Part shown: one piece after another, positions 7,243 to 45,787 of the stretch
Position numbering within the stretch: position 1 is the first letter of the stretch
How the letters are laid out: each line of letters starts with the position of its first letter
Assembly (NCBI RefSeq): GCF_041381155.1
Contig: NC_091138.1
Coordinates: 35,581,604-35,645,603, forward strand
Source of the DNA: Argopecten irradians
Lineage: Eukaryota > Mollusca > Bivalvia > Pectinida > Pectinidae
Direction of reading: 5' to 3'
DNA: 64,000 bases
The notes under the pieces: generated by a model
Database searches by the model: none
The model's input: the letters and a program-made list of their open reading frames with translations, nothing else
Told to the model about the DNA's origin: nothing
Position numbers and translations under genes: made by a program

Positions 7243-8264
7243 TTACCGGTACGGCAGTTGTATTTTCATAACATGCAGGCAGATAATATAAACAAAAACA
7301 ATTTTCTTCCCTTCTTCTCTGTATTCAGTTTTCCTCAAGCGCTTTCCTCACGCAGATGTACATAATAAAAAACCCAAAACGGTAACGAATCCAAAATTAT
7401 CCGGAAAACCAATTATACAACCATCCTAAACAAATATTAAGAACATAACAAAACCTGACTCGGAAATACATGATTTGCATTACTTTAGAAATAATATAGA
7501 TTTATTGTAACATTCTTAGGATTCAGAAATAAACTAGATTGATAGCAAAGAGTCAATTATATAATAGGAACGATAAGTAAAGGGGAATAAGTCTGATGAG
7601 CTTATAGCAAATCAACACACATAGAATGTAGTATATAACATCCTGCCCGCCTGAATGCCAGGCAATACAAAAAATTGTGTTGACGGCAAAAGATGGGTGT
7701 AGAGTTGCGAAAAGTTCATATAGAGCAAAACCTCAATTTGAAAACTAATTAAAAGTGAAAATCAAGTAATGCATCAACATTAATAATATTGCAAGAAAAC
7801 TGATACATTGTAAAGTAAGCAATATATAGCACTGAATATTAATGACTAGAAGTAAAAAAATAGCATGAATGGTTTTCAGATATTAAAAGATATTAACCAT
7901 GTCATTTTTATTTGTACTGTAAAGGTATATATGAACTATAACCAGATAGAATTTATGTGACAATAGACCATGCACCAAATGTGACTCTAGGAGCAACCAA
8001 GACTCATGTAACTACAGAACCATTTAATTACTAGAAGATAGGTATGTTGATATATCCGATACACTCTCTGAAACAATAACCCTCACTCACTATCATCAAC
8101 AATATTTAAAAAAAAATACCTAAAATATGATATCATTTAAAAGCTCAACAATAAGGTAATTTCCAGAGACATCAATAGCAAGGACACACATGTCAAAATT
8201 CTAAACTCATAAGCAGACTTGAATTGACAGTAAAATTTTAATATCGTTTATTTCGCCTTTGGTG
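7243..8264. other. Unclassified sequence between repeat A and the LTR element
   Basis: The word at 7605-7641 (GCAAATCAACACACATA, then ATGTAGTATATAACA) recurs at 32500-32536. The 28-bp word at 8222-8249 recurs at 32122-32149. Both sides thus appear to belong to one disrupted unit. There is no coding content. Confidence 0.5.
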
Positions 8265-8646
8265 TGTAACGAATATTGTTCTCTCATATTTATCAAAATA
8301 TATATCAATCTCACGTAGAAGTTAGAAAACTATTCGGGTTTTTGTGGCGATTGCTGTTTAGCATGTCCGAGTGGGGCACCGGATGGATCCGCCTCGACTC
8401 AGGTACGATTATAAGAGTTTTAAGTATATTCAGTCAAATTCGCAAACAGTATATATACCTTAGGTCTTAATTAAGTAATTAATCCAATATTTCCATGGGT
8501 ATTTTCGTTGTAAACACAACTTTTACGTGATTCTGTGACTCGTCTGACTGTTGTCATATTCCGCGAGAATTCGGAACTCTCTAGTGCGGGAGGCGGGATA
8601 CTAAGTTTAGTAGCGCGAGCTCGTTGTCACGGGCAACGTTTTTCAC

Positions 8647-8654
8647 TATAAATA
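8647..8654 (+). promoter_or_regulatory. LTR TATA box
   Basis: TATAAATA inside CACTATAAATAGCC. Transcription would be expected about 25-30 bp downstream, near 8675-8685. The same box is at 17734 in the 3' LTR. Confidence 0.75.
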
Positions 8655-8747
8655 GCCGTGTAGCGGCAGTTTCAAACACAGTCAGACTCAGTCAGACAAG
8701 CACTGTCATTTTATATTCACAGAGCGATCTAATAGTCCTTGTTCACC

Positions 8748-8783
8748 ATGGCAGATTCAGAGTGCAATATGGTACATAATTAG
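8748..8783 (+). CDS. Short upstream ORF in the LTR leader
   Basis: An ATG in strong context (CACCATGG) opens a frame of 11 codons plus stop, downstream of the predicted start site and upstream of gag. In the 3' LTR a one-base deletion changes the frame and lengthens it to 15 codons (17835-17882). It may modulate gag translation, or supply an initiator ATG to a spliced RNA. Both uses are inference. Confidence 0.35.
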   Translation: MADSECNMVHN

Positions 8784-8871
8784 ATCAGTGAATTAACCAA
8801 TACTGGTAACGAAAGGTTTCCATTGACAAACTTCTGATACATATTGGAACCAGTACCGGTTCCAGGCGTGT

Positions 8872-8940
8872 ACCCGATCTGGTTCAAGATGGAACCCGAT
8901 CTGGTTCAGCACCGGTAGATTACGTAACCCGATCTGGTCA
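8872..8940 (+). repeat. Triple ACCCGATCTGGT motif in the LTR
   Basis: Copies start at 8872, 8894 and 8927. The first two share ACCCGATCTGGTTCA and the third loses one T. The matching copies lie in the 3' LTR. They sit downstream of the TATA box, in the transcribed leader, so they may act on DNA or RNA. Confidence 0.7.
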
Positions 8941-9242
8941 TAGAAGATGTCTATACCGATCCGGATATTACCGGATTTTTAAATACCTAGCTTTTTAAAT
9001 ATATTCTTCCAGTCTTTGGGTATATATATATATTTAATATTATATAGCAAAGAGGTAAAATTTAAAAGTATCAAAAACATGTCAATGTCCATGGAGATCG
9101 TTCTGAAACTGGTATTGGTATGTGTGTAGCTTATAGGAACCTACATGTATATTATGTAACAGCAACCATCATGTACCCTATAAGGTTGTTCTATACGCTG
9201 GAGATGTAACCATCATAAATCTGGCATAATATTTCATGTTTT

Positions 9243-9252
9243 AATAAATAAA
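9243..9252 (+). terminator. LTR polyadenylation signals
   Basis: Two overlapping AATAAA hexamers (9243-9248 and 9247-9252), followed by a TG/T-rich stretch. In the 3' LTR they would end the element transcript. Confidence 0.7.
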
Positions 9253-9442
9253 ACAATTTGGATGTAAAACTCTGTTTTTGGTTTTCTTTCGGTTCAGTGC
9301 TAGGCTGGGAACGAACTAAAAATTGTATGTAACGGTACAAAGCGGGACCCGACCACAAGAGTGGCTATCACAAGGTGTATATCTACATGTATATGTAGAG
9401 AACTCAAATGTGAAAGGACCATAAGGGTCGAAAACGTTACAT

Positions 9443-9460
9443 TGGCGTCGTCGGCAGGAT
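9443..9460 (+). promoter_or_regulatory. Primer-binding site, tRNA-Ser type
   Basis: TGGCGTCGTCGGCAGGAT lies one base after the 5' LTR. Its complement ends in CCA and reads like the 3' end of a serine tRNA (ATCCTGCCGAC followed by an acceptor strand). The T-loop part ATCCTGCCGAC is typical of eukaryotic tRNA-Ser. Assignment is from memory of tRNA-Ser sequences; the species' own tRNA was not available. Confidence 0.75.
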
Positions 9461-9588
9461 ATAGGTGGAATTAATTTCCAAATATCCACTCATTCCCAGC
9501 GTCTAGTGTACCGAAAGAAGTTCAATCCAGAAAAACAAAAACAAAACCAGGAAAACATTCAAGTTTTATTTTAATACAAATATAAGCT

Positions 9589-10956
9589 ATGGATGACTCC
9601 GATTCAGAAAGTGAGGTTACATTTCGGAAAGATGATGGTTTCTCCAGTGTAGAGAACAACACTGTCGGGCATAGTGTATCTTCTGAATCTCAGAACCATG
9701 ATTCTCAATCTGAAAATATACAAAGTATAGAACAAATCAGTAGTGATATCATGAGGGAACTGGGAAAACAGTTGGATTCATTTAGCCAAGAAATATACAG
9801 AAACCTAGATGAAATTCGATCCGAGATGAGGCAGCAAATTTCTGAAATAAGAACAGATGTAAATGGGCTGGTTAAACGGGTAGATCATTTAGAAAAGAAA
9901 CTAGAGGGAGATAATGGTTTAGGTCAGTCTTTCTCCAGGGGAGACAACTATAACAATTCCCGAGTCCAAGACAGAAATGAAAACCACCAGGAACCCGATC
10001 ACACACTTTTTAGACCAATGACATCAAAAAGCAACACAAGGCTTAAACCACAAACATATAATGGGTCAGAGGATTTCGAAGAATACTTATCTCAGTACGA
10101 AATCATTGCCCAGATAAACAACTGGGATTACAAAGAAAAATCTTTGTACCTAGCAGGAAGTCTCAGTGGGAGTGCTCGTACGGTCCTCACCGAGTTGAGT
10201 ACCCAAGACAGGCAAGACTATGATAGCCTGGTAGACATCTTGAACATGAGGTATGGTTCTGTTGAAAGATCGGAAATGTACCGTGCAAGGTTACAGACAA
10301 AGGTCCGAGGTAAAGAGGAGTCTTTGTCGGAATTAGCACAGTCAATCCGTAAGTTAACACGGCAAGCATATCCGACAGCAGATTCTTCACTGATAAATAT
10401 TTTGGCTCTGGATCACTACATTGATTCAATCCAAGACTCTGAGTTAAGATTACGGCTACGTGAGTTAAGGCCCAAAAATATAAATGAGGCCGAAACACAT
10501 GCTGTTCGATTAGAGGCTCACCGTTTAGCTGACAGGCAACGTGGTAAAGCAGTGAAATCTGTTCAAATCACTGATAAATCACCAGCTGAAGCCTCTATGT
10601 GTCAGGAGAACAGACATCCAGTCACAAATGATGGTGAAGTTCTCGACATTGGGTCACTAACTAGGTGTATGTTCAACCTTGACAGGTCTACCAAATTGTT
10701 GGTAAAAGCCTTGAACAATCAAGGAAACAAACCAGCTAATCAACCCCAAAGGCAGCCAAGTGTTTGGAATAACAACTCCAACAGGCAACATGGTCCAACA
10801 AATAATGGTCCAAGCAGGGGAGATAACCGTAACAGACAAAATCATTCATTTAGGCAAGGAGCACATCCCTTTCCTAATGGTAATCAAAGGGGAGACAATT
10901 TCCAAAATTGTCAACCAAACTATCGGCACCAGAACCAAGCTTCGGGAAACCGTTAG
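9589..10956 (+). CDS. gag: Gag polyprotein of the LTR retrotransposon
   Basis: A 455-codon ORF for the structural protein that packages element RNA. The N-terminus is acidic and serine-rich. Residues about 55-106 form a strongly heptad-like coiled coil (DSFSQEIYRNLDEIRSEMRQ). Residues about 145-310 look like the Ty3-type capsid region, including LKPQTYNGSEDFEEYLSQYE. The C-terminal 80 residues or so are N/Q/R/G-rich with two RGDN motifs. They lack the usual CCHC zinc knuckle, so RNA binding may use the basic N/Q/R/G tail. The start ATG at 9589 follows an A-rich leader. The stop at 10954-10956 lies two codons after a slippery heptamer that leads into pol. Confidence 0.92.
   Translation: MDDSDSESEVTFRKDDGFSSVENNTVGHSVSSESQNHDSQSENIQSIEQISSDIMRELGKQLDSFSQEIYRNLDEIRSEMRQQISEIRTDVNGLVKRVDHLEKKLEGDNGLGQSFSRGDNYNNSRVQDRNENHQEPDHTLFRPMTSKSNTRLKPQTYNGSEDFEEYLSQYEIIAQINNWDYKEKSLYLAGSLSGSARTVLTELSTQDRQDYDSLVDILNMRYGSVERSEMYRARLQTKVRGKEESLSELAQSIRKLTRQAYPTADSSLINILALDHYIDSIQDSELRLRLRELRPKNINEAETHAVRLEAHRLADRQRGKAVKSVQITDKSPAEASMCQENRHPVTNDGEVLDIGSLTRCMFNLDRSTKLLVKALNNQGNKPANQPQRQPSVWNNNSNRQHGPTNNGPSRGDNRNRQNHSFRQGAHPFPNGNQRGDNFQNCQPNYRHQNQASGNR
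10944..10950 (+). promoter_or_regulatory. -1 ribosomal frameshift site GGGAAAC
   Basis: Read in gag frame this is G GGA AAC, a perfect X XXY YYZ slippery heptamer. The gag stop follows two codons later. Pol is open in the -1 frame across this point. The same heptamer serves gag-pol in some lentiviruses. I did not establish a downstream pseudoknot. Confidence 0.8.
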
Positions 10957-13900
10957 AAGCTGAGTTCGAGGGTCAGAAATCGGCTAAGGATGGGGAGAGA
11001 CCCACTGATATGATAATAAACTGTGTAAATAAAGATAGTGAAGGCCTATACACTTGTGTCAAGATTGAAAACCAAGAGGTTTCATTATTGGTTGACACAG
11101 GGGCCAATGTCACTATTTTAAATCACAAGTACCTTCAAAAGTTGGATTCCAAAAATAATCTCCAAATACAGCCAATACGCTTGAATCTGGTAACGGCTAC
11201 TGGAGAAAGGAAGCCATTTGTAGGAAAATGTCGGTTGCCAGTCAGACTTGGTCCTCTTACTGTAGAACATGAATTCTTTATAGCTGAAATAGAACAAAAT
11301 GGGATATTAGGCTTGGATTTTATGACAAAACATTCAGTAAACATACTCTTGAACAAGAACTGTTTAATGGTTAAAGGTGAAGTTGTCCCATGTTTTAGAT
11401 TCCAAGATGGAATCGAACCTATGTCTAGCAGAGTTTCAATTTTCGAAGATGTTGTTATTCCAGCAAATAGTGAAACTATAGTTACTGGTAGACTTGTAGA
11501 TCCAATATGTCGAGAGAAAACAGCGCTTGTAGAGCCTACACCAAATTTTGTGCAAAGACACGAGGTGTTATTGGCTAAAGCAGTGGTTGACCCGAGTAGG
11601 GGAATAATACCTTTACGTTTTCTCAATATTGGTAATGAAAGTTGTAAATTGTACAAAGATTCCATTGTGGCCACTATAGATAGAGTAAGCCAATGTATGG
11701 AAGTACAATCAGAAGAAATTTCTGTTAATAATATTAGTACAGGTAAGTCTAAACCTGATCTGGACAAAATACCTGAGCACCTAACCAAGTTATTTCAAGA
11801 GTCATGTTCTGAAATCTCAGATGAACAATCAGAAGCTTTGAAAAGTTTACTGATTGAATTTCAGGATTCATTTTCCAAGCACTCCAATGATCTAGGGTTA
11901 ACAGATCTGGTGGAGCATAGAATAAACACTGGTTCAAACCCGCCAATTAAACAGCAACCAAGGCGAATCCCTTTAGCTAAAATTAATGAAGCAGAAAAAG
12001 AGATAGAGGACATGGTTGCAAAAGGCGTCATTGAACCTTCAGATAGCCCTTGGTCAAGTCCTGTTGTTTTAGTAGAGAAGAAACATGACCATAGCATACG
12101 GTTTTGTCTCGACTATCGAAAACTGAATGATGTGACTATAAAGGATAGTCATCCTCTCCCAAGAATAGATGCAACCTTAGATGCACTTTCTGGTGCAAGC
12201 TGGTTTTCAACTGTAGATCTAAAAAGTGGGTACTGGCAGGTCAAAGTAGCGCCTGAAGACCGCCCAAAAACAGCATTCTCCATACCTGGAGGAGGACTCT
12301 GGCAATATGTAACAATGCCATTCGGTCTCACCAATGCTGGAGCCACATTTCAGAGGCTTATTGAGAAAATATTAGCAAAACTATCATGGAAAATCTGTAT
12401 GGTATACCTGGATGATATCATCATTCTATCAAAGACTTTTGATGAACATCTCGGGAACCTGCACCAAGTATTCGGTCGACTCAGGGATGCCAACCTGAAA
12501 ATGAACGCAAAGAAATGTAAACTACTGCAAAAGGAAGTTACGTTCCTTGGCCATGTGGTAAATGAAAACGGTATCGGTACCGATCCTGGGAAAATAGAGG
12601 CTGTAAGGAATTGGCCTGTTCCCCAGTCAGTGAAAGATGTTAGACGTTTTCTTGGGTTATGTTCTTATTACAGAAAGTTTGTGTTCAAGTTTGCTGATAT
12701 CGCCAAACCATTACACAAACTTACAGAACAATATCAAAGATTTAACTGGACATCAGACTGTCAAATAGCATTTGATAAACTCAAACGAGCTCTAACCAGC
12801 TCACCAATTCTGGCTTATCCTAAGTCTGAAGGACTTTTTATACTGGACACCGATGCATCAAATGATGGCTTAGGTGCAGTATTATCTCAGCTACAGAATG
12901 GGGAAGAAAAGGTTATTGGTTACTTCAGCAAAATATTTTCAAAAGCTGAAAGAAAATATTGCGTAACCAGAAGGGAATTGTTAGCAATAGTCAGTTCAGT
13001 TAAGCACTTTCATCATTACCTGTATGGTCAATACTTCAAAGTAAGAAGTGACCATGGTGCTCTAACATGGCTTATCAATTTCAAAAACCCTGAGGGTCAG
13101 ATAGCTCGGTGGTTCGAGTTTCTGTCCTCATATCAGTTTAAGATAGAATATAGAGCTGGTCGTGCTCATGGGAACGCAGATGCTTTGTCACGTAGGCCAT
13201 GTTGGGAAGACCAATGTAGCTACTGCGCTCGAGCCGAACAGAAATACAACCCAACTATTCTACAAAATGAAACCTTAAAACCTGTTGAACTACCAGTTGC
13301 TGTTGATTCCGGTTCAGATACTGGTGAGCAGGTGAGCTGTTCCATGGTAACAACCAGAACTTGTAGTGCAGAGTCTGTAGAACCTGAAATTACAGAAACA
13401 AATAGTAAAACAAAAACCAAGGAGATCAGCGACACCAACCTCAGTAATAAAAGTGTAATAGGCGCCCAAAGCCAGGACACTGTACTTCAAAATGTATTTA
13501 AATGGGTCCAAAGTAACAAGAGGCCAGAATGGTCTGATATTTCCCATTTAAATGAAGCTACTAAATATTACTGGGCAAGGTTTGACTCCCTGTTAATAAA
13601 AGATGGTATCTTATGCCATAAGTGGGAGCCATCTCAAGGGAGACCACTCAAACTCCAGATAGTTTTACCCTGTAATCTACAAAACTATGCACTCCAGCAA
13701 TTACACAACAGCATTACTGGAGGACACCTGGGAGTCAAAAAGACTTTATCAAAAATTAGAGACCGATTCTTCTGGTATCAGATGTCGAGTCATGTCAAAC
13801 ACTGGGTCAAGATATGCGACCAGTGTGCAGCTAAGAAATCTCCTGGCAAGAAAGCCAAAGGAGCTTTACAAACCTACAATGTAGGGAGTCCAATGGAAAG

Positions 13901-14756
13901 GTGGGCTATTGATGTCATCGGACCATTACCAAAGAGTAATAGGGGGCACCTTTATCTGTTGGTTGTAGCAGACTACTTTACGAAATGGGTCGATGCCATT
14001 CCAATGCGGAATCAGAAGGCATCAACAGTGGCACATAAGTTTATCGAAAGGGTGGTTACCATCTTTGGAGCACCAATGGAATTGCATTCTGACCAGGGAA
14101 CTAATTTCCAGTCAGATGTTTTCAAAGAGATATGCAATATCTTGGGAATAACTAAAACTAGAACCACTCCGTACAGACCACAGTCTGACGGCATGGTAGA
14201 ACGTGCCAACAGAACCATCGAAGCAATGTTGTCTGCATATATAGCTAAAAATATGAAAGATTGGGATGACCATATACCGTTGTTGATGATGGCGTATCGC
14301 TCTGCGGAACATGAATCCCTGGGCGTGTCTCCCAACGAAATGGTTTTTGGTCGCAGCATCAATCTCCCTGTCGACCTGGTTCTGGGTAGAATCAGTTCTG
14401 AAACAGTACAAGAACATACAGATTATGCGTATGGTCTTACAAAAATACTAGAATCAATACATGATTTCGCCAGAGGGAGGATAAAAATCACCTCTGAGCA
14501 TATAAAGAAAAACCACGATAGAAATATCAAGGTTAACCAATTCAAAAGGGGAGACCCTGTCTGGCTTTTCAATTCAAGGAAAGGACTTGGGTCAAAGTTA
14601 TGTTGTCCATGGGAAGGTCCTTATCTGGTGCTTGACAAAATAAACGATGTAGTGTACCGAGTACAGAAAAGTTCCAAAACCAAGCCAAAAGTAGTGCACC
14701 ATAATATGTTAAAACCATATATTGGTGAAAATAAACCAGCATGGTTGAGGGACTAA
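10951..14756 (+). CDS. pol: Pol polyprotein (protease, reverse transcriptase, RNase H, integrase)
   Basis: The frame is open from at least 10908 but is probably entered by -1 frameshifting at 10944-10950. Domains in order: aspartic protease with LLVDTGANVTIL (about 11087-11122) and the distal GILGLDFM; reverse transcriptase with the catalytic YLDD at about 12404-12415 and VDLKSGYWQV upstream; RNase H from about 12840 (ILDTDASNDGLGAVL); integrase with an HHCC zinc domain ending CDQCAAKK (about 13815-13840); DDE core with aspartates in WAIDVIGP and LHSDQGTNF and glutamate in GMVERANR; and a GPY/F module (WEGPYLVLDKINDVVYRVQ) near the C-terminus. No stop or frameshift interrupts it, and all key residues are present. 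Integrase after RNase H is the Ty3/gypsy order. Confidence 0.95.
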
Positions 14757-14854
14757 TACTACTACATTACATTAACGAAGAGAACAAATAGTATCTATCT
14801 GTACCAATGTTGAAAATTGTAATATGATGTAACATTAGTGACAATTCAATACTT

Positions 14855-14878
14855 ACAGATTCTATTGTTCTTTTGTAG
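14855..14878 (+). promoter_or_regulatory. Splice acceptor ahead of ORF3
   Basis: A pyrimidine-rich run TTCTATTGTTCTTTTGTAG ends at 14878. The terminal TAG is an in-frame stop for the ORF3 frame, so the coding sequence that starts immediately after it cannot be translated from upstream without splicing. It would make a subgenomic mRNA in the way env-bearing elements do. A phase-compatible GAG/GT is present just after the gag start (9615/9616), and others are possible in the LTR leader. The donor is not established. Confidence 0.6.
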
Positions 14879-15859
14879 GTCACCAGGTACCAATGCCAAA
14901 TTTGCAAAGCAGAAACAATCAAGCTTTCGCTATGCGAGCGTCACATCACCACAGCCCATTCAGGGGTGGGGTTCCAATGCAGTGATTGCCACGCCATTCT
15001 CAGCAGACGTGACACACAACACACAGGCTGTTCTCCCAACAAAACCCTAAGAATGGTGTCGAGAGCCACAGGGAAGTTCTCGGAGGAGGACAGGATGGCT
15101 TACGAGGTGTTCCAAAAGGAAAGAGCCAGGCATGTCAAAGTTATCCGACGCCCTGCAAAGAGTGATGCGGAAAAGAAAGAGGTAGAGTCAAGTAGGGTAG
15201 ATAGGCCAGCAAATAGGGACCGGAAACGGAAAGCATCACAAACATTATTGCTTACCAGGGCACCAACAAAGCCGAGTAAACCCTACAATAAAAAAAGGAA
15301 ACTGCCCGAGGTGCCTGAGGTACAAGTTGAGCCACCAGTGCCGGTTCCTGCTCTTGTAGAGGAGGTCCAGGTGGCTGCCCTTGACCTCAGCACCTCAGGG
15401 GGCAAAGAGGATGATGAACTCTCTTTGATTGCTCCGAGTACGTACTCTGTGGAGTCATCAGACGTCGCCTATACTCCAACCAGAAAGCCAAGACATGAGG
15501 TGAAGTTAAAAGGGATGGCCCTCAACCAAGCCCAGAGGGTAATACTCAACGTTGGCGGAGTCCGCTTCGAAACTAGCGCTCCAACCTTAGAGAGTGACCC
15601 ATCCAGCATATTGGCAAGCATGGTGAAGAAAACGTCTCCCTTTCAGCCCTATGAAGTGGATCATGTGTACACTTATTTTCTCGACCGTGACCACAAGCAC
15701 TTCAGAGTAATTTTAAACTATCTTAGAAATCCTAACGGACAGGTCAGGCTCCTTCCTGTTACCCGGTACCACCTGCAAGAATTATTAGAAGAATGTGTTT
15801 ATTACGAAATTGAGTCCCTTGCAAGAATTGTGAAACAGAAACTCTCCGAATTAGATTAA
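14879..15859 (+). CDS. ORF3: zinc fingers plus KCTD/T1-type BTB domain, carried by the retrotransposon
   Basis: The frame is open for 326 codons from the splice acceptor; the first in-frame ATG is only at 15053. The first part encodes a C2H2 finger (YQCQICK, then 12 residues between the cysteine and histidine pairs, ending HITTAH) and a second finger with CSDC and HTGC ligands. Both are lost if translation starts at the ATG. A basic disordered linker follows with NLS-like RDRKRK and NKKRK. Then comes ALDLST, close to the PxDLS motif bound by CtBP. From about 15535 the C-terminal 105 residues are a KCTD/Kv-T1 type BTB domain (VILNVGGVRFET, YFLDRDHKHFRVILNYLRNP, LLEECVYYEIESL). In hosts such domains assemble oligomers and cullin-3 adaptors. 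The role here is unknown: perhaps a nuclear factor controlling element or host transcription, or a silencing antagonist. The frame is intact. Confidence 0.88.
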   Translation, partial: VTRYQCQICKAETIKLSLCERHITTAHSGVGFQCSDCHAILSRRDTQHTGCSPNKTLRMVSRATGKFSEEDRMAYEVFQKERARHVKVIRRPAKSDAEKKEVESSRVDRPANRDRKRKASQTLLLTRAPTKPSKPYNKKRKLPEVPEVQVEPPVPVPALVEEVQVAALDLSTSGGKEDDELSLIAPSTYSVESSDVAYTPTRKPRHEVKLKGMALNQAQRVILNVGGVRFETSAPTLESDPSSILASMVKKTSPFQPYEVDHVYTYFLDRDHKHFRVILNYLRNPNGQVRLLPVTRYHLQELLEECVYYEIESLARIVKQKLSELD

Positions 15860-16540
15860 ATCATCAAATTGACATTCAAAAAAAAAAAACATTATTGGGG
15901 GGTGGCTTATTATAAATGTTGTCAGTGTTTTTATCCCGGGTTTAAGTAAATCTACTCGATATCATGGAAAAATTATGTGTGTACATTAGGGGATGAATCC
16001 AATTGTATTGTAATTTATTATGTCATATATGTAGTATAACTTGATACTGTTAATATGTAAGTATAAAATAATACTTTCTCAGTTTGAAATCAAGGTTGAG
16101 TAAACCTCAGACTTCTAAGTTAATTATTTGAAAAGAATTACCAAGTATTGTTAAATTTCACTTTTCTTCTCTTTCGGTATGGATTTTTCTCTCCAATATC
16201 ATGTCAGGTTCTTTCCTGGAAAATATAAAGTAATTTAAATTAGTACTTTGATTGTTCAAATAATTCAATGGAGACATAGATATATAGATCTACATATTGT
16301 ATTTTTGTATACATTACCAGTAAATGAATATAGATCTAGTAATACTAATAATACAATTTTTCTGATGGCTTTTCAAGTAATTACCCACTTACAAAAGTAG
16401 GCTATGGTTGTAAATATACTTTTTGAAACGGAAATAATGACCATTCATCAATTCTTTCATGTACATAAATTAATGCATAGATACATGTATATGCGTATAT
16501 ATATATAAATATTTTTATCTGAAAATTGATATTCCCAAAT

Positions 16541-16953
16541 ATCCAGCTGGAATTTGGAAGGCCCAAGAATGGATAATATGTAAATACATTTATTTGTAAA
16601 TATGATTAATTGGCTACTTATTCTCAAATATGATGAATATTGTTTATAGAATCCATGACAGAAATAATTAAATTGTATCATACTTCAATATCCAAACATC
16701 CCGCTGGAGTTTGGAATTGATTTCTACGGATATCCCGCTGGAATCCGAGAATGGCTATATTTATATATAACCATGATATAAATGAACCAATTATTATACT
16801 TATGATTTGTTGCTATATTGAAGTGTTACTGTTAAAATGAATTTTTGAAGTTTTGATTTAAAATTATTGTCCAAATTGTAGATTGATATGGTGCAAGATT
16901 GTAAATAACACTTTCTTAAGAAAGAAAATTACAAACATCCGGCTGGAGTTTGA
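16541..16953 (+). repeat. Four copies of ATCCNGCTGGARTTTGG
   Basis: Copies at 16541-16557 (ATCCAGCTGGAATTTGG), 16698-16714 (ATCCCGCTGGAGTTTGG), 16732-16748 (ATCCCGCTGGAATCCGA) and 16937-16953 (ATCCGGCTGGAGTTTGA). All are in the same orientation, with spacings of 157, 34 and 205 bp. They are GC-rich islands in an AT-rich background, so chance recurrence is unlikely. They could be protein-binding sites, possibly for ORF3. Confidence 0.75.
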
Positions 16954-17339
16954 CCAAATGTATATTTTGTAAATTAATTGTACCAGAACATTTTCGCAAT
17001 TTGACGAATTACAGATTTAAAGTTGTAATCAATCTCATCTTATTTTTTTTTTACGGTTTGGTCGCTACGTAAACCAATCAGGAAGGTCACCATTAAAACT
17101 ACTGAATAATGTGAACTATTTAAAACCATGAGAATCGAAACACTGTTCGGTAATAACTTACCTGAACGTAACTTGTGACTTTCCTCGATTGTCGTCTGCG
17201 CCCAACCGTATGCAAATGATGGATAGTAGCGGGTGCAAAGCCTCGTTTTGGGTTCCACTAATTGATCAATTAACTCAGATACATTTTGCTAAATTCTCGA
17301 TATATTATGGTATAAACATTCGGGACGAATGCTTTTCAT

Positions 17340-17348
17340 GGAGGGGGG
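17340..17348 (+). promoter_or_regulatory. Polypurine tract
   Basis: GGAGGGGGG, three bases (CTA) before the TGTAAC start of the 3' LTR. It is placed as expected for the plus-strand primer. Confidence 0.8.
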
Positions 17349-17351
17349 CTA

Positions 17352-18526
17352 TGTAACGAATATTGTTCTCTCATATTTATCAAAATATATATCAATCTCA
17401 CGTAGAAGTTAGAAAACTATTCGGGTTTTTGTGGCGATTGCTGTTTAGCATGTCCGAGTGGGGCACCGGATGGATCCGCCTCGACTCAGGTACGATTATA
17501 AGAGTTTTAAGTATATTCAGTCAAATTCGCAAACAGTATATATACCTTAGGTCTTAATTAAGTAATTAATCCAATATTTCCATGGGTATTTTCGTTGTAA
17601 ACACAACTTTTACGTGATTCTGTGACTCGTCTGACTGTTGTCATATTCCGCGAGAATTCGGAACTCTCTAGTGCGGGAGGCGGGATACTAAGTTTAGTAG
17701 CGCGAGCTCGTTGTCACGGGCAACGTTTTTCACTATAAATAGCCGTGTAGCGGCAGTTTCAAACACAGTCAGACTCAGTCAGACAAGCACTGTCATTTTA
17801 TATTCACAGAGCGATCTAATAGTCCTTGTTCACCATGGCAGATTCAAGTGCAATATGGTACATAATTAGATCAGTGAATTAACCAATACTGGTAACGAAA
17901 GGTTTCCATTGACAAACTTCTGATACATATTGGAACCAGTACCGGTTCCAGGCGTGTACCCGATCTGGTTCAAGATGGAACCCGATCTGGTTCAGCACCG
18001 GTAGATTACGTAACCCGATCTGGTCATAGAAGATGTCTATACCGATCCGGATATTACCGGATTTTTAAATACCTAGCTTTTTAAATATATTCTTCCAGTC
18101 TTTGGGTATATATATATATTTAATATTATATAGCAAAGAGGTAAAATTTAAAAGTATCAAAAACATGTCAATGTCCATGGAGATCGTTCTGAAACTGGTA
18201 TTGGTATGTGTGTAGCTTATAGGAACCTACATGTATATTATGTAACAGCAACCATCATGTACCCTATAAGGTTGTTCTATACGCTGGAGATGTAACCATC
18301 ATAAATCTGGCATAATATTTCATGTTTTAATAAATAAAACAATTTGGATGTAAAACTCTGTTTTGGTTTTCTTTCGGTTCAGTGCTAGGCTGGGAACGAA
18401 CTAAAAATTGTATGTAACGGTACAAAGCGGGACCCGACCACAAGAGTGGCTATCACAAGGTGTATATCTACATGTATATGTAGAGAACTCAAATGTGAAA
18501 GGACCATAAGGGTCGAAAACGTTACA
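17352..18526 (+). repeat. 3' LTR
   Basis: Matches the 5' LTR with two single-base deletions and no substitution that I could see. The TATA box is at 17734 and the ends are TGTAAC/GTTACA. The bases after it (CTCC) do not match those before the 5' LTR (GGTG). Confidence 0.96.
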
Positions 18527-20723
18527 CTCCAATGTCGAGAACTTCCAGTCATTTGTGATCATCGAAAACGGCCAAGAGTTTTCAGAGAAAAAGTTGTCAC
18601 AATCAATACATACTTACAAGGGAGATAACTCTGTGATATGCAAAGACAGAATAGGCCTGACCAGTACCAGTAATGAAGAGATGTACTTTTATAATGTATC
18701 AAAATTAAATAGTTATTAAAGTACATTTAAAGTACATTTAAGAAATATTAATTCCTCACAATAAGAAGTACTGTTATAATCCAACTTATTTTTGAGTGCG
18801 TTTGAATTTCACTACCTAGGTATTTTGTAGACAATCAAAATTTATGAAAAATTATTTAATGGCTGCAAAATTGTTTCAGTTAATCACAATTTTGTGAACA
18901 AATCACAAAATTAATTGTCATGAAAATATTTCAAGTAATTGTTGAATTAAGTTGCTGCCAAAATAATTAGTTGGTTTATATAACATCCCTTATAATTAAT
19001 AATAATAATAAAAAAAACAAACAACAACAAAGCTTTGTAATCCTCAATATGTTTATTATTAAAAGCATATCAAAATGCAAGGTCATGATTTTTATCCCTT
19101 CAATTAAAACCTTAGGTAACTAATTATACCAATTAATTACCAAACAGGTTTAGATAGGAAATTCTTCCTCCGTATACACTATCCCAAGTACATTTTATAT
19201 ACAAAGTTTATCACATGCATCCCAATCATTCTATCATTATAGAGAAAAAATGAAAAAGAAACGTTTTAATATGAATTTCCTTAAAAAAAAAAAAAACATA
19301 AAAAAAAATAAGAATATTAAAAGATTATTTCCATGTCTAAAATATTTCTACAAAATAATTTAATAAGTTTAGGCAAAATACAGTATTTTTATTAGGAAAA
19401 GTTAATTTTGTCAAAAAAAAAAAATATAAAAAATAATACAATACTACTTTTCTTCAGCAAACTCAATATATACTTAAACTGATTTTCAATCTTAAGAATT
19501 GAACCAAAGCATTTATCTTAAATTGCCTAAATGATGAACAAACCTCACAATACACTACCGACAAAATGCAATACCACTACTTCATTATGCGTTTGCTGAA
19601 AATCAAATTTTGGGGTATGAAAAAACTTAGGCCTGCATTCGGTGATAATTACGATCTCTCTCCCTTAAAAATCCCAACATCTATTTCTAGGAGAGGAAGG
19701 CTTATTGTAGAATATGGTAACAAGATTATTTATCATGAAATATCTAACATAATGAGCAGAAGATAAAACATAGGAAAAGTTCTGTCTTAGATAAGGTGGG
19801 TCAAAAAGTCTAAATGAAGAGAGTTGGATACAAAGAGAAAAGTTAAGGTGAATATGTAGCGTTCACTGTACTGCATAGATGTGCATTGTTTGTTGGTCCC
19901 AGGGAAACAAGTCATCTTTCCAGCAGGTAACTGAATTCCTAAAGGTAGTTACTGTAAATCAATGATAATTCTCTTGTAATTTCATTTATATATAACATTA
20001 GTCCATTCACCCCCGAAGACACATTTAGACTCTTCTAAATCAAAGACTAGACCAGTCTATTATGAAATTTCAGGAGTGAATAAGTTAAGAATGTTATCTT
20101 GTGGCCTTGTGAGATTTGTAAGAAATATTTGAACAAACTAATAAAATAATTAAGTAGTATATCAAGTTAATTATCTTTTATAGAATTAATAAATGGTTTA
20201 TGTTCAATTTCTAACAATGAAAATTCAATTAGCACCTAAATAATATGACAAAATAAATGCAAGAAACACAAGGTTCTCTCTCTGTTATTTTCATAACATA
20301 TTGAATCTACATTTTTTTTTATTATTACTATTTTATATTAGGCACAATGAAAAACCATTGCTGACCGATGCAACCAAAATCCCATGTTTCTGAGTCATGG
20401 CCAGGTTGTTCAAAAGGTGATTAGCTAAATGACTTCCATTTACCTTGATTTTAAAATTACCATTTAACTGTGATGACCATAACCATCTTTTAAACAACTG
20501 GGCCCATATCTGATGAAAATGTCACTTTTAATTTTGATTTTTATCCCAATGAAATATGATTTTTCCATATATACATATTTAGCAAGCTTTCATGGCATTA
20601 ATGTTGATGCTGAACGCATCGCTGGTCAAAAATTCATAACAGATGGTGATAATCTCTGATCTCCATTATCAGATGATGAATGGAGTTGTCTGCCCTTGGT
20701 CCAAGCAGGGAGAGAGCTGATCA
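18527..20723. other. Intergenic, AT-rich; 3' of the CASP gene
   Basis: I see no gene or exon I can support. Several A-runs and a CAAGGGAGATAACTC word are present. Poly(A) signals for the minus-strand CASP gene should lie in the right part of this stretch. Confidence 0.45.
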
Positions 20724-37958: not shown

Positions 37959-40900
37959 CTGCAAGGTAAAAACAAATATTTAAGTTTTCTCCATATTAAA
38001 TTGAGGTATTTGCAAACAAATTCTACAGATACTCATAAATTGCTTTTGAAACTAAGTTCAAATGATTAATTTCCTTTGGAAATCACAACTCAAAGTATGG
38101 CGTTGACTTTGCGTTGAACTATTGTCCTATCTGTTTAAATTAACAGTTATATCTAAAATTTTCTTTAAATACCTATAAGTAACTGTTTATTTAAACAGCT
38201 TATGCATAGACTCTTATTTTGACTTACCCTTTAATGGTTTGCACTAAACGCTGTCTCTCTATTTCTGCTAGTCGTGTACAAGTAATGTACATGTATATTG
38301 TATACTTAAGCTGTATCCAAGATAGCAATATCAATATCGTTTCAAAAAGACTTGCGCCTCTTTGTTGCATAGGAGTGTAGACAAGTCATTTGAAGTCGGA
38401 TAGTTATGATACATTATCATTTAAATCTGAATAAATCATCATTCGTCACAGCTTAACATTAATATCGTAATATACATTTCCATTTAAACAACACTGTATA
38501 CCACTTTACTTTCACGTATACAATATTTCACATCTTCGTTACTTTCACATACATGTAATCCATAAACTTAATTTATTTCACATCGATTTCGATACAAATT
38601 ACGTGTCTTACAAATTACTTTTGATGGCCTGGAAGTAAACGCTTGAGGGGTGAGAGAACATCGGAGTACCGGAAGAAAACCCAAGTGATTGGGCAGTTGA
38701 CCCTGGGCTATTGATCGACTTAGTGAATGACGAGTGGCTTATTCACTAAATATGTAAAGATCTGCTCTGGTGATAAGTCAAAATTTTCTGATACCGATTT
38801 TTCGAAGTAGGAATTCATATCAAATTTTAAAATGTTATAAAATAATATAATGATGTGCTTGATTTTGAGCTATAATAAATAAAAGTTAATCGAAATTTCA
38901 CCGGAATGTCACTTTTTTAGCATACACATGACAAACTGAAGCAATATTTTGCAAATTAGTTGTCTGATCAGTTCGAATATTCGCAAAATTGTCAAAACCA
39001 ATGTTTTCTTAATAAAATGATATCACACAGTCAACCCATCCTTTTTGCTCAGAACAGTTGTATATTACATATACCCCCTAAATTTTGAAGATGAAAATAC
39101 CCTTGTTTTTTACAGTTTTTGGCAGAATCAACGCTTAACAAAAAAAAGTTCTGATGACTAACATTTTTTTTTTTATTTTTGCAATTCAAAAGAAAAAATG
39201 TTGCTGTTTCTAATACCATCATAACAAGAGGCCCATGGGCCTTAATGGTCACCTGATATTAGATACAAATTAGTTACGTAATTTACTAGCACACTGACGT
39301 CTTTTGTTCACGAAATAGGAACATACATCCAATAGGTCTACATACAAATTTTCATTAAGCTTCGTGTATATTTACTTACATTACCGTGTTCACAAGGTAC
39401 AATAATTATTTTCGCAAAGGGCAATAATTCCGTAAATGATTAGTCTGAAATCTTTCCAATGATAGTCTACATACAAAGTTTCCTTAACCTCGTTGCATAT
39501 TTACCCAAGTTATCATGTTCACAAGATTCAATTATTATAATTGCAAAGAGCAATTACTCCGTCAGTACGATCTTATCAGGTCAATTTTCTAACTTGTCCG
39601 TGATCTTTCCAATTTTAGTCTAAATAAAAAGTTTCATGAAGCTAAGTGCATATTTATGTCCAATAATACTTACTAGTGCAAAGGACAACCACTCCTTAAA
39701 TGATCTTCAAATCAATCTGATTTTCAAACTCGTCCGAGATCTTTCAAATATTAGTCTACCCACAAAGTTTCATTAGCTCGGTTCATATTTACTAAAGTTA
39801 TCGCGTTCACAAGGTCCAATAGTAATTATTAGTGCAAAGGGCAGTAATCCCGTAAACAACTGTCGAATCAATCTGATTTTCGAAGTTGTCTGAGATGTTT
39901 CCAACGTTAGTTTACACACAAAGTTTCAATAAGCTCGGTTCATATTTACTAAAGTTATCGCGTTCACAAGGTCTGATAATAAGTAATAGTTCAAAGGACA
40001 ATAACTCCGTAAACTCCGAGATGATTTAATGTTAGTCTGCATACAAAGTTTCATTAAGCTCAATTTATATTTACTCAAGTTATCGCGTTTACAAGGAATT
40101 GTTAACGGACGACGCACAACGGACGACGACGGACAAAAAACTATCTCAATAGGTCACTATGACCTAAAAAAAGAGGAACATTGTATAAATTGGTTGTTAA
40201 ATTGGTTGTTATCCAGCATTTCTTGCATAAAATTCTAATAAATCTATTTGAACTAAGATGATACCACGTGCATAAAATTCTAATAAATCTATTTGAACTA
40301 AGATGCAAAATGGCTGCCAAATCGGTAATTTTTTTAAAAGATGTGCATACAAAATACTACAAGCAACAAAAGTCTATATCATAATTTCTATATAGCAACT
40401 TGCTATAAATTGAGAAAATTAGTTTTAAACAAAAGGCCCAGAGTGCCTGTACCGCTTACCTGGTTTATAATGCCAAGTAATGTTCTGGATACAGGTTCAT
40501 TGTTTCTTTTCTGAAGGAATTTTACCTCTAATTCCCCTATTGGGCCCCATCCCTCCTGCCCCCAGGGGGTCAGGGCCAACATTTATACAAGTTCTGTTCT
40601 CCTTCCCACAAGGATGATTGTGGCCAAATTTGGTAACAATCCATGCAGAACTCCAGGACAAGAAGCAATTTATAGGATTTACCTCGATTTCCCCTATTGA
40701 ACCTCGATTTCCCCTATTGAACCTCGCCCCTGCTGCCCCCAGGGGTCAGAGCCAAAATTTATAAAAGTTCTGTTCCCCTTATCCAAAGGATGTTTGTAGC
40801 CAAATTTGGTTACAATCCATGAAGAACTCTAGGACAAGTAGCGATTTATAGGCTTTACCTTGATTTCCCTATTGGGCCCCGCCCCTCCTGCCCCCGGGGG

Positions 40901-43900
40901 TCTGAGCCAAAATTTATACAAGTTCTGTTCAACTCCTCCCAAGGATGTGTGTGGTCAAATTTGGTAACAATCCATAAGAACTCTAGGACAAATAGCAATT
41001 TATAGAATTTATCTCAAATTCCCCTATTGGGCCCTCCTGCCCCTGGAGGTCAGAGCCAAAATTCATACAAACTCTGTTCTCCTTTCCCCAAGGATGTTTG
41101 TGGCCAAATTTGGTCACAATCCATTCAGAACTCCAGGAGAAGTAGCGATTTATTGGATTTACCTCGATTTCCCCTATTGAGCCCCGCCCCTCCTGCCCCC
41201 GGAGGGTCAGAGCCAAAATTTATACAAGTTCTGTTCCCCTTCTCCAAAGGATGTTTGTAGCCAAATTTGGTTACAATCCATGAAAAAACTCTAGGTGAAG
41301 TAGCGATTTATAGGATTTACCTCTATTTCCCCTATTAGGCCCCACCCCTCCTGCCCCCGGGGGCTCAAAGCCAAAATTTATACAAGTTCTGTTTCCCTGC
41401 CCCAAGGATGTTTGTGGCCAAATTTGATTACAATCCATGCAGAACTCTAGGACAAGTTGCGATTTATAGGATTTACTTTGATTTCCCCTCTTGGGCCCCG
41501 CCCCTCCTGCCCTCGGGGTGTCAGAGCCAAAATTTATACAAGTTCTGTTCCTCTTCCCCCAAGGATTTTGTAGCCAAATTTGGTTACAATCCATGAAGAA
41601 CTAAAACTCACGAAATTTCTTTTAATTAATATTGAAATGTGACTTCAGCGTGATTGAAACCTCACCAGAGCTTTCACGCTCTTTCGTATATCGGAAAATT
41701 AATTGGTTGACATAGTTTACACTGACCTGGCGCCAGGAGAGTTGTTGGTGTATCACTCGGGCTGTCAGAGGGAACCGTTTGGTAGGACAGGCGGAAACCG
41801 GCGTGTGATATCATGGAATCCGAGTGGAAAAGGATAAAAACAACACTATCACTTGTAGTCAAATCAAATCCCGCATTTCCAGAATATTCTCCAAGAAGTG
41901 GGGAATTTTTATCCGGTCCTACAATACAAAGAAATGAATTTTAAGTTTCGTTATTTCCTGATAAAATTATAGAATCAACCTGACAAAGAAGTATGTGTTA
42001 AATATATGTGATTGTAAGTTTCCCAATGGTAAAAAGCCATAGTATACTATATAAGTACAGAAATATTAATAGTTGCCTTGTAAACGTCGAATCTAAGTTG
42101 ATAGTTTGAAAAAAGTCCTGATATAGAAACAAGATGACTATGATTTGTCGATGCCTGTAAATATCTACCGGTGGATGTCAAAGATACAAATAATGTTATA
42201 ATATAAACCGGACCTCATGAGTTGATTTTCCGAAAATGGAGTGTGTATCAGTGGGGTTTACCTTTTCTTCACTACAAACCCGATAAACTATTGTAATTTG
42301 TAAGAATAAGTATGGTTTAATGAGTATAAACTCTATCATTAAACACAATTTGGTATTTTCACAATCCAAAATTTTACATAACCATAAACATCTACATCAA
42401 GTAAGCGTCATTCGTTAAAAGAAATAATGCGTTATTTAACAAGAGGCCCATGGGCCTAAACGGTCATCTGACTATTAGCACAACACAATGTAGTCGTTTA
42501 AAGATTTTAGCATATTTGACCTCTGTGACCTTGAATGAAGATCAAAGTCTTTCATTTGAACAAACTTGGTAGCCCTTCATCCCAGCATGTCACAGGCCCA
42601 ATATCAGGTCTCTAGGCCTCCTAGTTATTCTCAAGAAGTCGTTTAAAGATTTTAACCTTTTTGACCCCTGTGACCTTGAATGAAGGTCAAGGTCATTCAA
42701 TTGAACAAACTCGGTAACCCTTCATCCCAGCGTGCTGCATGCCCAATATGAGTATCCTGGGCCTTTTGGTTCTTGAGAAGAAGTCGTTTAAATATTTACG
42801 CCTATTTGACCATTGTGACCTTCAATGAAGATCAAGGTCATTCATTTGAACAAACTTGATATCCCTTCATCCCAGCATGTCAAAGGCCAAATATAAGGTC
42901 TCTAGACCTCCTACTTATTCTAAAGAAGTCGTTTAAAATATTTTAGCTAATTTGACCCCTGTGACCTTGAATTTAGGTCAAGGCCATTCATTTTATTAAA
43001 TTTGGTAGCCCTTCATCTAAGCATGCTGCAAGCCCAATATGAGTATTCTGGGCCTTTTGGTTCTTGAGAAGAAGTCGTTTAAATATTTACGCCTATTTGA
43101 CCATTGTGACCTTCAATGAAGATCAAGGTCATTCATTTGAACAAACTTGATATCCCTTCATCCCAGCATGTCAAAGGCCAAATATAAGGTCTCTAGACCT
43201 CCTACTTATTCTAAAGAAGTCGTTTAAAATATTTTAGCTAATTTGACCCCTGTGACCTTGAATTTAGGTCAAGGCCATTCATTTTATTAAATTTGGTAGC
43301 CCTTCATCTAAGCATGCTGCAAGCCCAATATGAGTATTCTGGGCCTTTTGGTTCTTGAGAAGAAGTCGTTTAAAGATTTCAGCCTTTTTGACTCCTGTGA
43401 CCTTGAATGAAGATCAAGGTCATTCATTTGAACAAACTTGATATCCCTTCATCCTAGCATGTCACAAACCCAATATCAGGTATCTAGGCCTCTTAGTTAT
43501 TCACAAGAACTTGTTTAAAGGATTTTTAGCCTATTTGACCCTGAGACCTTGAATGAAGGTCAAGATCATTTATTTGAACAAACTTGGTAGCACTTCATCC
43601 CAGCATGCTGCAGGCCCAATATGAATATCCTGGGCTTTTCTGTTCTTGAGAAGAAGTCGTTATAAGATTTTAGCCTATTTGACCACTGTGACCTTGAATG
43701 AAGATCAAGGTCATTCATTTGAACAAACTTGATAGCCCTTAATCCCAGCATACTCCATGCCTAATTTCAGTACCCTGGGCTTACTTGTTCTTCAGAAGAA
43801 GTTGTTTAAAGAATTTAGCCTATTTAACCCCTGTGACCTTGAATGAAGATCAAGGTCATACATTTGAAGAAATTTGATAGCCCTTCATCCTGGCATGTCA

Positions 43901-45787
43901 CAAACCCAATATCAGGTCTCTAGGCCTCTTAGTTATTCACAAGAACTTGTTTAAAGGATTTTTAGCCTATTTGACCCTGATACCTTTAATGAAGGTCAAG
44001 ATCATTTATTTGAACAAACTTGGTAGCACTTCATCCCAGCATGCTACAGGCCAAATATCAGTACCCTGGGCCTTCTGGGCCTTGAGAAGAAGTCGTTGAA
44101 AGATTTTAGCCTTTTTGACCCCTGTGATCTTGAATGAAGGTCAAGGTCATTCATTTGAACAAACTTGGTAGCCCTTTGTCCCAGTATGCTACAGGCCAAA
44201 TATCAGTACCCTGGGCCTTTCGATTATTGAGAAGTCGTTTGAATAATGTATAATAATAATAATAATAATGCTGTTAGAGGTACTTTCATTATTCCAACTG
44301 TTCTGAAATCAGAATGATTTTTTTAGTGCTCCGAGTAGACCGCAAGTTATTCATTATGTGAAATAGTTGTTATGCACGTCATGTCCACATAATCGAAAAA
44401 TGAATTTTATATCATGTAATTATCGGTTAGCTTGTAATAATGATAAAACTTTATTTAGAGAGGATAATATGCTTAGCCAAAGGCCAATCTACCGCAAGGT
44501 CCTCTAAGGTTAGTAAAACATATTATGGTTAGTAAAAATATATTGTTATATAAATAAAATATATCACAGACAGTAATAGTTATATCGTAATCACATCAGT
44601 CCATTGCGGACAGCAAAATATTATCATTGAAATAATTGTTTCATAAATCAATGATACATAATTAGTCAATTTTTAGCTACATGTACATGAAATAATTACA
44701 CAATATGTATATCACAGTCAGTGTTAATGAAAAATATCACAGAATGCACAAAAAACAGTTGCACAAAGTTGTGTTATCATTGAAATGGCATAACTACCGT
44801 ATATACATATATGCTAACATAGCAAAGAGTAAAAATTACCAGAATATATGCTAAGATAGCATAGCAAAAGACTTTTCACTACAATTTAAAAGAACGAGTT
44901 AAGAATCCCAAAGGTATTTGATCAGGTTTTCTCTAAAAGTGATAAAAGTTTTAGTTGACTTCAAAATATTTGGTATTTGGTTCCAATCCTGAGCTCCAGA
45001 GATCAAAAAATTGATTTGAACAAAAACTGGTTCTATGCTTAGGCATGGGTCATTGGTAACTATCAATAAGTAATTATAGTGCTCTTGATACGAATCACTC
45101 CACGGAAAGCCATGTAATTGCAATCAGGTAGATACTGTATAACCCAGAGAGTGCAGCAGGACCGTCTCTTCTTCTGAATTAAGCGCTAGTGTCACTATTG
45201 TTTTAATTTCATTTGGATATGAACGAAATTTTGTTCACAAACTTTTGAATCTTATCCATAAAAGTCAAATATCTCAAAAGGGTTTCCAACAAAATAGATA
45301 CATAACCGGATGAATTTAAACGATAGTGATATCTATGCTTAAAGTTAATTTTTCTGCAAACTTGATAAAAAAATACGTTTCGACCTACGATTCAATTGAT
45401 TTTTCAAATTATCATTTTCAAAATCAATACGCAATGTCGATGTCTCTATTCGAAACGGCATTTACATGTTTCAAAAAATGGTGTATGCTTATGAATACCA
45501 GGTACCAAGTTGTAAGAAATAATATATCTTTGAAGGTAATTAAGAATATCCGTCGATATTTAAAGGAAACTACGAGTATCGGTTTTATTTGTTATGAAAC
45601 ATAAAGAAGCAACATTCAGAACGTAAGTATAAAATTTCTATCCATATGACGCTAATTTACACTGCTCATCTTACCATCAAATATCCATAAAAAGTCAAAG
45701 CCGTATTCCAGATCTATAAAAACCGACTCTATTCTAATCTTCTTGCCAGGTTCAGAGGCGGTAACCATGCAGTTACAGTATGTGTCA
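37762..45787 (-). CDS. Secreted CUB-domain protein, 3' three exons (5' incomplete)
   Basis: Exons in transcript order: 45787-45675, 41918-41727, 37958-37762. The first two give most of one CUB domain: CNCMVTASEPGKKIRIESVF then DLEYGFDFLWIFDG, and across the splice LLGEYSG, DLTTSDSVVFILFHSD and GFRLSYQTV. A short Ser/Thr/Pro linker follows. The last exon adds 64 residues with WLEGYIDHETQEFVMPDGT and four cysteines (RICYDLF, DYCHTYCE) before TAG. All junctions are phase 1 and in frame. No first exon or signal peptide was found; the phase-2 exon that should precede 45787 is missing or too diverged. Likely an extracellular recognition or matrix protein. Introns are packed with tandem repeats. Confidence 0.78.
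39225..40165 (+). repeat. Repeat A superfamily member with a different core
   Basis: It has the same head (CAAGAGGCCCATGGGCC, then GGTCACCTGA) and tail (GACGACGGACAAAAA, AGGTCACTATGACCTAAAA) as family A. The middle is instead a tandem of about 150-170 bp units with CAAAGTTTCATTAAGCTC and ATCGCGTTCACAAGG. It lies in the last intron of the CUB gene. Confidence 0.75.
40436..41605 (+). repeat. Tandem array, seven units of about 155 bp
   Basis: Each unit carries CCCCTATTGGGCC, a GCCCCTCCTGCCCCC box, AGCCAAAATTTATACAAG, TTCTGTTC and CCAAATTTGGTTACAATCC. A head-like GGCCCAGAGTGCC precedes the array. Open frames on both strands are repeat artefacts. It sits between the second and third CUB-gene exons. 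Confidence 0.85.
41727..41918 (-). CDS. CUB domain, second exon plus linker
   Basis: A 192-nt exon, acceptor TTGTAG, donor CCAG/GTCAGT. It encodes the CUB C-terminal strands (VVFILFHSDSMISHAGFRL) and an S/T/P-rich linker. Confidence 0.8.
42437..44235 (+). repeat. Repeat A superfamily head followed by about 12 tandem units of 146 bp
   Basis: It starts with CAAGAGGCCCATGGGCC and then repeats AAGAAGTCGTTTAAAGATTT, TGACCTTGAATGAAGGTCAA, GGTCATTCATTTGAACAAAC and CCCTTCATCCCAGCATG. No tail is found; it fades into an AAT microsatellite near 44250. It sits in the intron that splits the CUB domain. Confidence 0.88.
44440..45150 (-). mobile_element. LINE 3' fragment
   Basis: The minus-strand frame 45123-44899 ends in GAQDWNQIPNILKSTKTFIT and a stop. 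That is the usual end of a CR1/L2-like reverse transcriptase ORF (pattern GAKLWNxLPxxIKxxxS). Downstream on that strand a short 3' UTR leads to CTAAATAAAGTTTTATCATT and an ATT-rich tail. It is 5'-truncated. Confidence 0.65.
45675..45787 (-). CDS. CUB domain, first visible exon
   Basis: The acceptor is ATTACAG and the donor GATG/GTAAGA. The pattern of two close cysteines, a hydrophobic strand and LWIFDG fits the central part of CUB. It starts with one base completing a codon from an unseen upstream exon. Confidence 0.78.

Follow-up and report, generated by a model that had tools for sequence, protein, structure and literature searches.

A third gene with paired zinc fingers and a KCTD-type BTB domain in Ty3/gypsy retrotransposons of the bay scallop, possibly a spliced regulator of the element

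How does a retrotransposon come to carry, between pol and its 3' LTR, an open reading frame that joins two zinc fingers to a KCTD-type BTB domain, and what might such a protein do for the element? The locus that raises this question comes from a bivalve, the host group envisaged in the original prediction, namely the bay scallop Argopecten irradians. A Ty3/gypsy LTR retrotransposon spans positions 8265–18526 of the window (the whole stretch of DNA analysed, 64,000 nucleotides) and has the following features:

8265–9441, + strand: 5' LTR (TGTAAC...GTTACA), 1177 bp, with 0 mismatches to the 3' LTR over 1175 aligned columns
9443–9460, + strand: primer binding site, complement of the 3' end of tRNA-Ser(AGA) plus CCA
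9589–10956, + strand: gag ORF, 455 aa, PNMA-like (Pfam, E=1.4e-5)
10908–14756, + strand: pol ORF, in the -1 frame relative to gag, with protease, RT, RNase H and integrase by Pfam
14857–14878, + strand: putative 3' splice site, a pyrimidine-rich tract plus AG abutting ORF3 in phase 0
14879–15859, + strand: ORF3, zinc-finger and KCTD-type BTB protein, 326 codons plus stop
17340–17348, + strand: polypurine tract ahead of the 3' LTR, read from the sequence
17352–18526, + strand: 3' LTR, 1175 bp, from the LTR-to-LTR alignment

The element has the structure of Ty3/gypsy retrotransposons, with LTRs ending in TG..CA, a primer binding site, a polypurine tract and the pol domain order protease–RT–RNase H–integrase (Pfam). 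Target-site duplications of 4 bp were found at two of the four copies checked, both sister copies (ACAG in C324 and ACAT in C2), and none was seen around the window copy (8258–8264 and 18527–18533) or the C1 copy. Both of the places examined among the 12 genomic matches to the primer binding site (L121 and L122) are called tRNA-Ser by ARAGORN, and a tRNA-Ser primer is presumably compatible with the Mag lineage of Ty3/gypsy. The match of the window gag (9589–10956) to PNMA (PF14893) lies barely at the curated cut-off. ORF3 occupies the place held by env in env-bearing elements, and the gap of ~1.5 kb between it and the 3' LTR contains no ORF of 100 aa. Elsewhere in the window, an ORF at 61519–61962 (+ strand) with a helix-turn-helix-like stretch, RRRLTEAERWQIIGMKTAGMSSRAIGMAMNVSLSVVIRLV, resembles, by eye, the beginning of a Tc1/mariner transposase, and tandem arrays lie at 40701–41602 (units of ~156 bp), 42492–44234 (~145/291) and 59070–60358 (~326).

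The protein encoded by ORF3 is divided as follows:

14894–14959, + strand: zinc finger 1, C2H2 (C6, C9, H22, H27), from the translation and alignment
14978–15031, + strand: zinc finger 2, C2HC (C34, C37, H48, C51), from the translation and alignment
15263–15301, + strand: basic linker PTKPSKPYNKKRK, NLS-like by look only
15539–15820, + strand: KCTD-type BTB (BTB_2) domain, from Pfam, the modelled fold and structure matches

The two N-terminal zinc fingers that had been predicted are borne out by the alignment, in which all eight ligands are invariant in 9/9 ORF3 N-termini; the single-sequence Pfam scores of the BTB-type fingers fall under the cut-off. Basic, NLS-like stretches had also been proposed, and a basic linker is indeed present, as it is in many families, but its sequence varies among them, being similar in L010, L016, L027 and P0002 and different in L034, L039 and L041–L043. 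The CtBP-binding motif is PxDLS. The CtBP-like ALDLST motif pointed out earlier is not conserved: ALDLS is restricted to the window family, P0002 has ALDRT, other rows show PADLA, NDLAL or nothing, and PVDLT occurs elsewhere in P0004, which leaves CtBP recruitment by ORF3 unsupported. No hydrophobic or transmembrane-looking segment was found in ORF3 when its sequence was read by eye.

The claim that a KCTD/T1-type BTB domain sits inside a Ty3/gypsy element was to stand or fall with a profile search, and it stands, with a BTB_2 match of E=1.6e-19 and 70.5 bits (Pfam; curated cut-off 21.4); the five other BTB-type families scanned score 47–67 bits, all above that cut-off. The monomer model of the domain has the KCTD fold and matches KCTD10, KCTD13, KCTD5 and KCTD17. 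On the BTB tree, whose row identities were spot-checked (L097 nearest KCTD16, L096 nearest KCTD7, L081 nearest Kv3), ORF3 sides with the host KCTDs and not with Kv channels, in a grouping split from the other 25 rows with support of 100/99, the ORF3 group's own support being 81/64. The tree and the structure matches together rule out a Kv-channel origin, in agreement with the KCTD affinity suggested at the outset. Downstream of the BTB there is just a short helix, and the full-length AF2 model is unusable (pLDDT 38). A protein search with the ORF3 alignment recovered P0001 and P0002 again, together with P0006 and P0007, both of which the tree puts on the Kv side, and a protein search with the L034 ORF3 gave no match. 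The 114 pattern matches in viral contigs include no relative, and the best hit in PHROGs reached an E of only 0.31.

The genome searched (845.8 Mb in 1508 contigs) yielded 125 scored ORF3 matches in 88 loci, some of which are host KCTD/Kv genes or decayed pieces; the pol search gave 126 scored matches and, with 125 of 2755 candidates scored, its counts are lower bounds. Where integrase identity to the window is 48% or more, 36 of 56 scored pol matches have ORF3 downstream on the same strand within 6 kb, and in 34 of these 36 the distance from pol is at most 1.4 kb; below 48% identity, ORF3 follows none of 70. The many copies in the same pol–ORF3 order that had been expected do therefore exist. 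Nor is ORF3 confined to one copy and broken in the others, which would have pointed to a chance insertion, since fingers and BTB lie in a single open frame at 17 of the 27 loci read. Its placement across these copies marks ORF3 as a true third gene, carried by a Ty3/gypsy lineage of the bay scallop. One ORF3, that of contig C433, is an exact match to a deposited scallop "uncharacterized protein" (P0003), and of the 121 BTB_2 matches in the scallop genome, 44 are no more than 4.5 kb from a scored pol or 2.5 kb from an ORF3 finger match, so counts of KCTD genes may be inflated. Clusters of BTB_2 matches at C9:22.0–22.4 Mb, C9:10.36–10.42 Mb and C1:31.83–31.85 Mb may represent expanded host Kv/KCTD-like genes.

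On an integrase tree of 23 rows, 12 of them BTB-type, the BTB label requires two changes, a number that none of 500 label shuffles matched or undercut. Rooted with the outgroup, the tree is consistent with a single gain of the BTB-type ORF3 and a single loss nested within the BTB group, whose basal branch is weak (87/57). The 20 scored pol matches at or above 48% identity that have no ORF3 comprise 17 at 66–77% integrase identity and three at 48–53%. L035 (C1:63291340) and L036 (C10:18698586), with ~70% integrase identity, have no ORF3 downstream of pol but retain a short zinc-finger-like vestige right after it (tblastn E ~0.02–0.04, weak but in the right place), which makes loss of ORF3 likelier than primary absence. 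In several copies of the ORF3-less subgroup, pol is still open over a long stretch (1284 aa in two of them), so ORF3 is not indispensable, a point that counts against the regulatory role proposed below.

With the window ORF3 as reference and p values for fewer non-synonymous changes than expected under neutrality, pN/pS is 0.15 against L004 (p 1e-16), 0.17 against L008 (p 5e-19) and 0.29 against L013 (p 5e-21). These ratios demonstrate purifying selection on the coding sequence relative to diverged copies, as had been anticipated. Selection is not significant against the very close L005 (p=0.46) or the decayed L007 (p=0.09). L009 and L010 differ by 14 synonymous and 4 non-synonymous changes in ORF3, and the pairs L034/L046 and L042/L047 by one synonymous and three non-synonymous changes each, too few to tell. 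Between families, the BTB is synonymously saturated (pS at least 0.72) in 65 of 66 pairs, with dN of 0.32–0.82, and its dN exceeds that of integrase in 65/66, the exception being the near-identical L067/L068. When L066/L016 are compared with L033/L025, integrase has a dS of 0.60 and a dN of 0.05, whereas fingers and BTB are synonymously saturated; this disparity suggests that ORF3 has been swapped between families by recombination.

Third ORFs are also found in relatives without a BTB. Among the BTB-less loci read (L037 and L038 of the 47% group, and L051–L059 with more distant pols), paired Cys/His finger motifs occur in a third ORF of L037, L038, L051–L056, L058 and L059, and no such ORF is evident in L057. 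The Pfam finger cut-off is reached by L037 alone (25.2 bits), and Pfam detected no BTB in any of the seven loci scanned (L037, L052–L056 and L058). Their C-termini vary: L053 and L054 end in a short tail, L056 in what looks by eye like a coiled coil, and L055 and L058 have in common a "WPPxGW" segment, which lacks a Pfam match in both and occurs in a different frame in L051. The L054 linker KSTKPTLPFNQKR resembles the window linker APTKPSKPYNKKRK. Profile comparison of the BTB-type N-termini with the BTB-less third ORFs gives 78% probability (E=1.8e-5) for a match restricted to the finger pair; this is suggestive at most, C2H2 fingers being common. The finger-bearing third ORFs of both types are likely all homologous, and the fingers are probably a constant core to which the BTB was added as a module in one clade.

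ORF3 had been described as intact, which holds for its 326 open codons but not for its start: stop codons separate it from pol, and the window copy offers no ATG upstream of the fingers. In 11/11 BTB-type families, the best AG among the 45 nt upstream of the first finger has phase 0; chance would give this phase in one third per family, and the families are related rather than independent. Scored with rough, self-set weights, the 3' splice sites of 9/11 families fall in the top 8% of 2324 control windows; the score of the window site is equalled by 1.5% of these, and the sites of L016 and L044 score no better than ~30% of controls. Among the BTB-less loci, six of the nine scored (L051, L053–L056 and L058) have an AG 0–5 nt ahead of an ATG, with scores reached by 0.3–18% of control windows, and the other three (L037, L052 and L059) have no good AG. 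No convincing 5' splice donor was found in the leader or gag of eight copies; a candidate at a conserved position of the gag N-terminus was rejected because its GT is not kept in L115 and L116. Because no ATG precedes the fingers and the AG is in phase 0 in 11/11 families, ORF3 is probably made from spliced RNA through this 3' splice site, with the start codon upstream in most families. In the BTB-type L041, where an ATG comes directly after the AG, translation does not need a start codon from an exon further upstream.

ORF3 combines probable splicing with fingers and a ring-forming domain, and in this it parallels CERV, a protein of the Caenorhabditis elegans LTR retrotransposon Cer1, which is of the Ty3/gypsy class; we know of no sequence family common to CERV and ORF3. 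On this analogy, ORF3 may be an oligomeric nuclear RNA- or DNA-binding regulator of its element, comparable to Rev and CERV, a reading to which we give somewhat less than an even chance. The protein would be translated from spliced mRNA by way of the upstream phase-0 3' splice site and would enter the nucleus, where the paired fingers would bind the element's own RNA (or DNA). Against the RNA-binding variant, C2H2-type fingers bind DNA more often than RNA. The BTB, as one of several C-terminal modules that would be exchangeable on the zinc-finger core, would assemble ORF3 into a ring (a pentamer, as in most KCTDs) and thus into a multivalent regulator acting on the export or expression of unspliced genomic RNA. 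We infer oligomerisation from the modelled domain, KCTD BTBs being mostly pentamers according to excerpts of PMC5664961 and PMC10856315. An excerpt of PMC10309623 describes CERV as spliced, nuclear and needed for the export of unspliced genomic RNA, with a predicted ring of at least five subunits and Cys loops that are essential for that export.

Other explanations compete with a regulator of this kind. The notion of a functionless host gene fragment caught by chance in one element, or of an assembly artefact, would agree with the missing target-site duplication of the window copy, but its probability is practically negligible in view of at least 36 pol-linked loci with the same gene order, the single open frame that holds fingers and BTB at 17/27 of the loci read, the purifying selection and the clustering of BTB-type rows on the integrase tree. 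It is very improbable that ORF3 replaces env and serves in particle release or cell-to-cell transfer: it lies in the env position and is apparently spliced like env, but it is made of zinc fingers and a BTB and has no membrane-like segment by eye. A finger protein assembled by its BTB might instead bind the LTR or chromatin and control transcription or steer integration. The C2H2-type pair, the basic linkers and the BTB as an oligomeriser are consistent with such a DNA-binding factor, as is the example of KCTD1, an atypical KCTD and transcriptional repressor in the excerpt of PMC7618933; this explanation nevertheless appears doubtful, and ORF3 is not fused to integrase, which speaks against it.

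The BTB might also recruit cullin-3, with fingers and linker bringing a host factor (for example, one involved in silencing) for ubiquitination and turnover; lentiviral accessory proteins use other cullins in a comparable way. The grouping of the ORF3 BTB with host KCTDs rather than Kv channels is consistent with this, and its PDB matches include the CUL3 binders KCTD5, KCTD9 and KCTD10, but the non-binders KCTD1, KCTD15 and KCTD16 match about equally well. Not all KCTDs bind CUL3 (excerpt of PMC4431850), and the CUL3 contacts lie mostly in the variable alpha2-beta3 loop (excerpt of PMC10856315), so the sequence cannot decide whether ORF3 binds CUL3. The faster change of BTB than of integrase in nearly all family pairs is what an arms race would give, although rapid change is not by itself adaptive change, and finger-bearing third ORFs exist in related elements without any BTB. 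Taken together, a CUL3 adaptor is a possible but rather unlikely role for ORF3, though the foremost competitor of the regulator.

Returning to the regulator, it forms part of a broader model that seems to us about evenly balanced between right and wrong. According to it, a lineage of animal Ty3/gypsy elements would have a third gene that is spliced and modular, its finger pair constant and its C-termini exchangeable; in one clade, a ring-building KCTD BTB would have been captured, yielding the first retroelement-encoded KCTD, a regulator of genomic RNA or a CUL3 adaptor directed against host silencing, passed between families by recombination. In LTR retrotransposons other than retroviruses, accessory genes are few and not well understood. 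A finger/KCTD gene conserved in diverged families makes it testable how elements that splice still export their unspliced genome, and whether the cullin-3 system can be commandeered by a retroelement.

Accessory ORFs in LTR retrotransposons are already known, and it is the combination of fingers and KCTD that is unusual. No report of a BTB/KCTD gene in an LTR retrotransposon was found among the titles and abstract openings of the open-access papers searched, and "BTB" occurs 0 times in PMC10294476, PMC6238403, PMC8220671 and PMC8556966. The BTB_2 domain and fold of ORF3 are shared with KCTD5, 9, 10, 13 and 17 and with the non-CUL3 binders KCTD1/15/16; what sets ORF3 apart from these host proteins is that its BTB sits at the C-terminus, after two zinc fingers and with no more than a short helix beyond it, and that a retrotransposon encodes it. 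In Pandoravirus and other giant DNA viruses, BTB proteins likewise place a KCTD-like BTB fold in a genetic parasite, although these are large DNA viruses with no tie to reverse-transcribing elements. Grande is a plant element with an accessory gene. As far as the title cited in PMC8220671 goes, this gene resembles ORF3 in having a nuclear product and a place in the 3' internal region, and differs in having its own promoter, with no BTB mentioned there. The AlkB-bearing Ty3/gypsy elements of Phalaenopsis have, in the excerpt of PMC9289625, a host-type domain fixed as an extra ORF, as in ORF3, but there the domain is an m6A demethylase in plant elements, whereas ORF3 is a finger/BTB protein of many diverged families in an animal. 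CERV, as described in the excerpt of PMC10309623, differs from ORF3 in its five exons, partly in the gag frame, in its experimentally shown function and in that no BTB is reported for it; what it would have in common with ORF3, with each feature inferred on the scallop side, is a spliced element mRNA and a nuclear protein that joins Cys fingers to a predicted ring.
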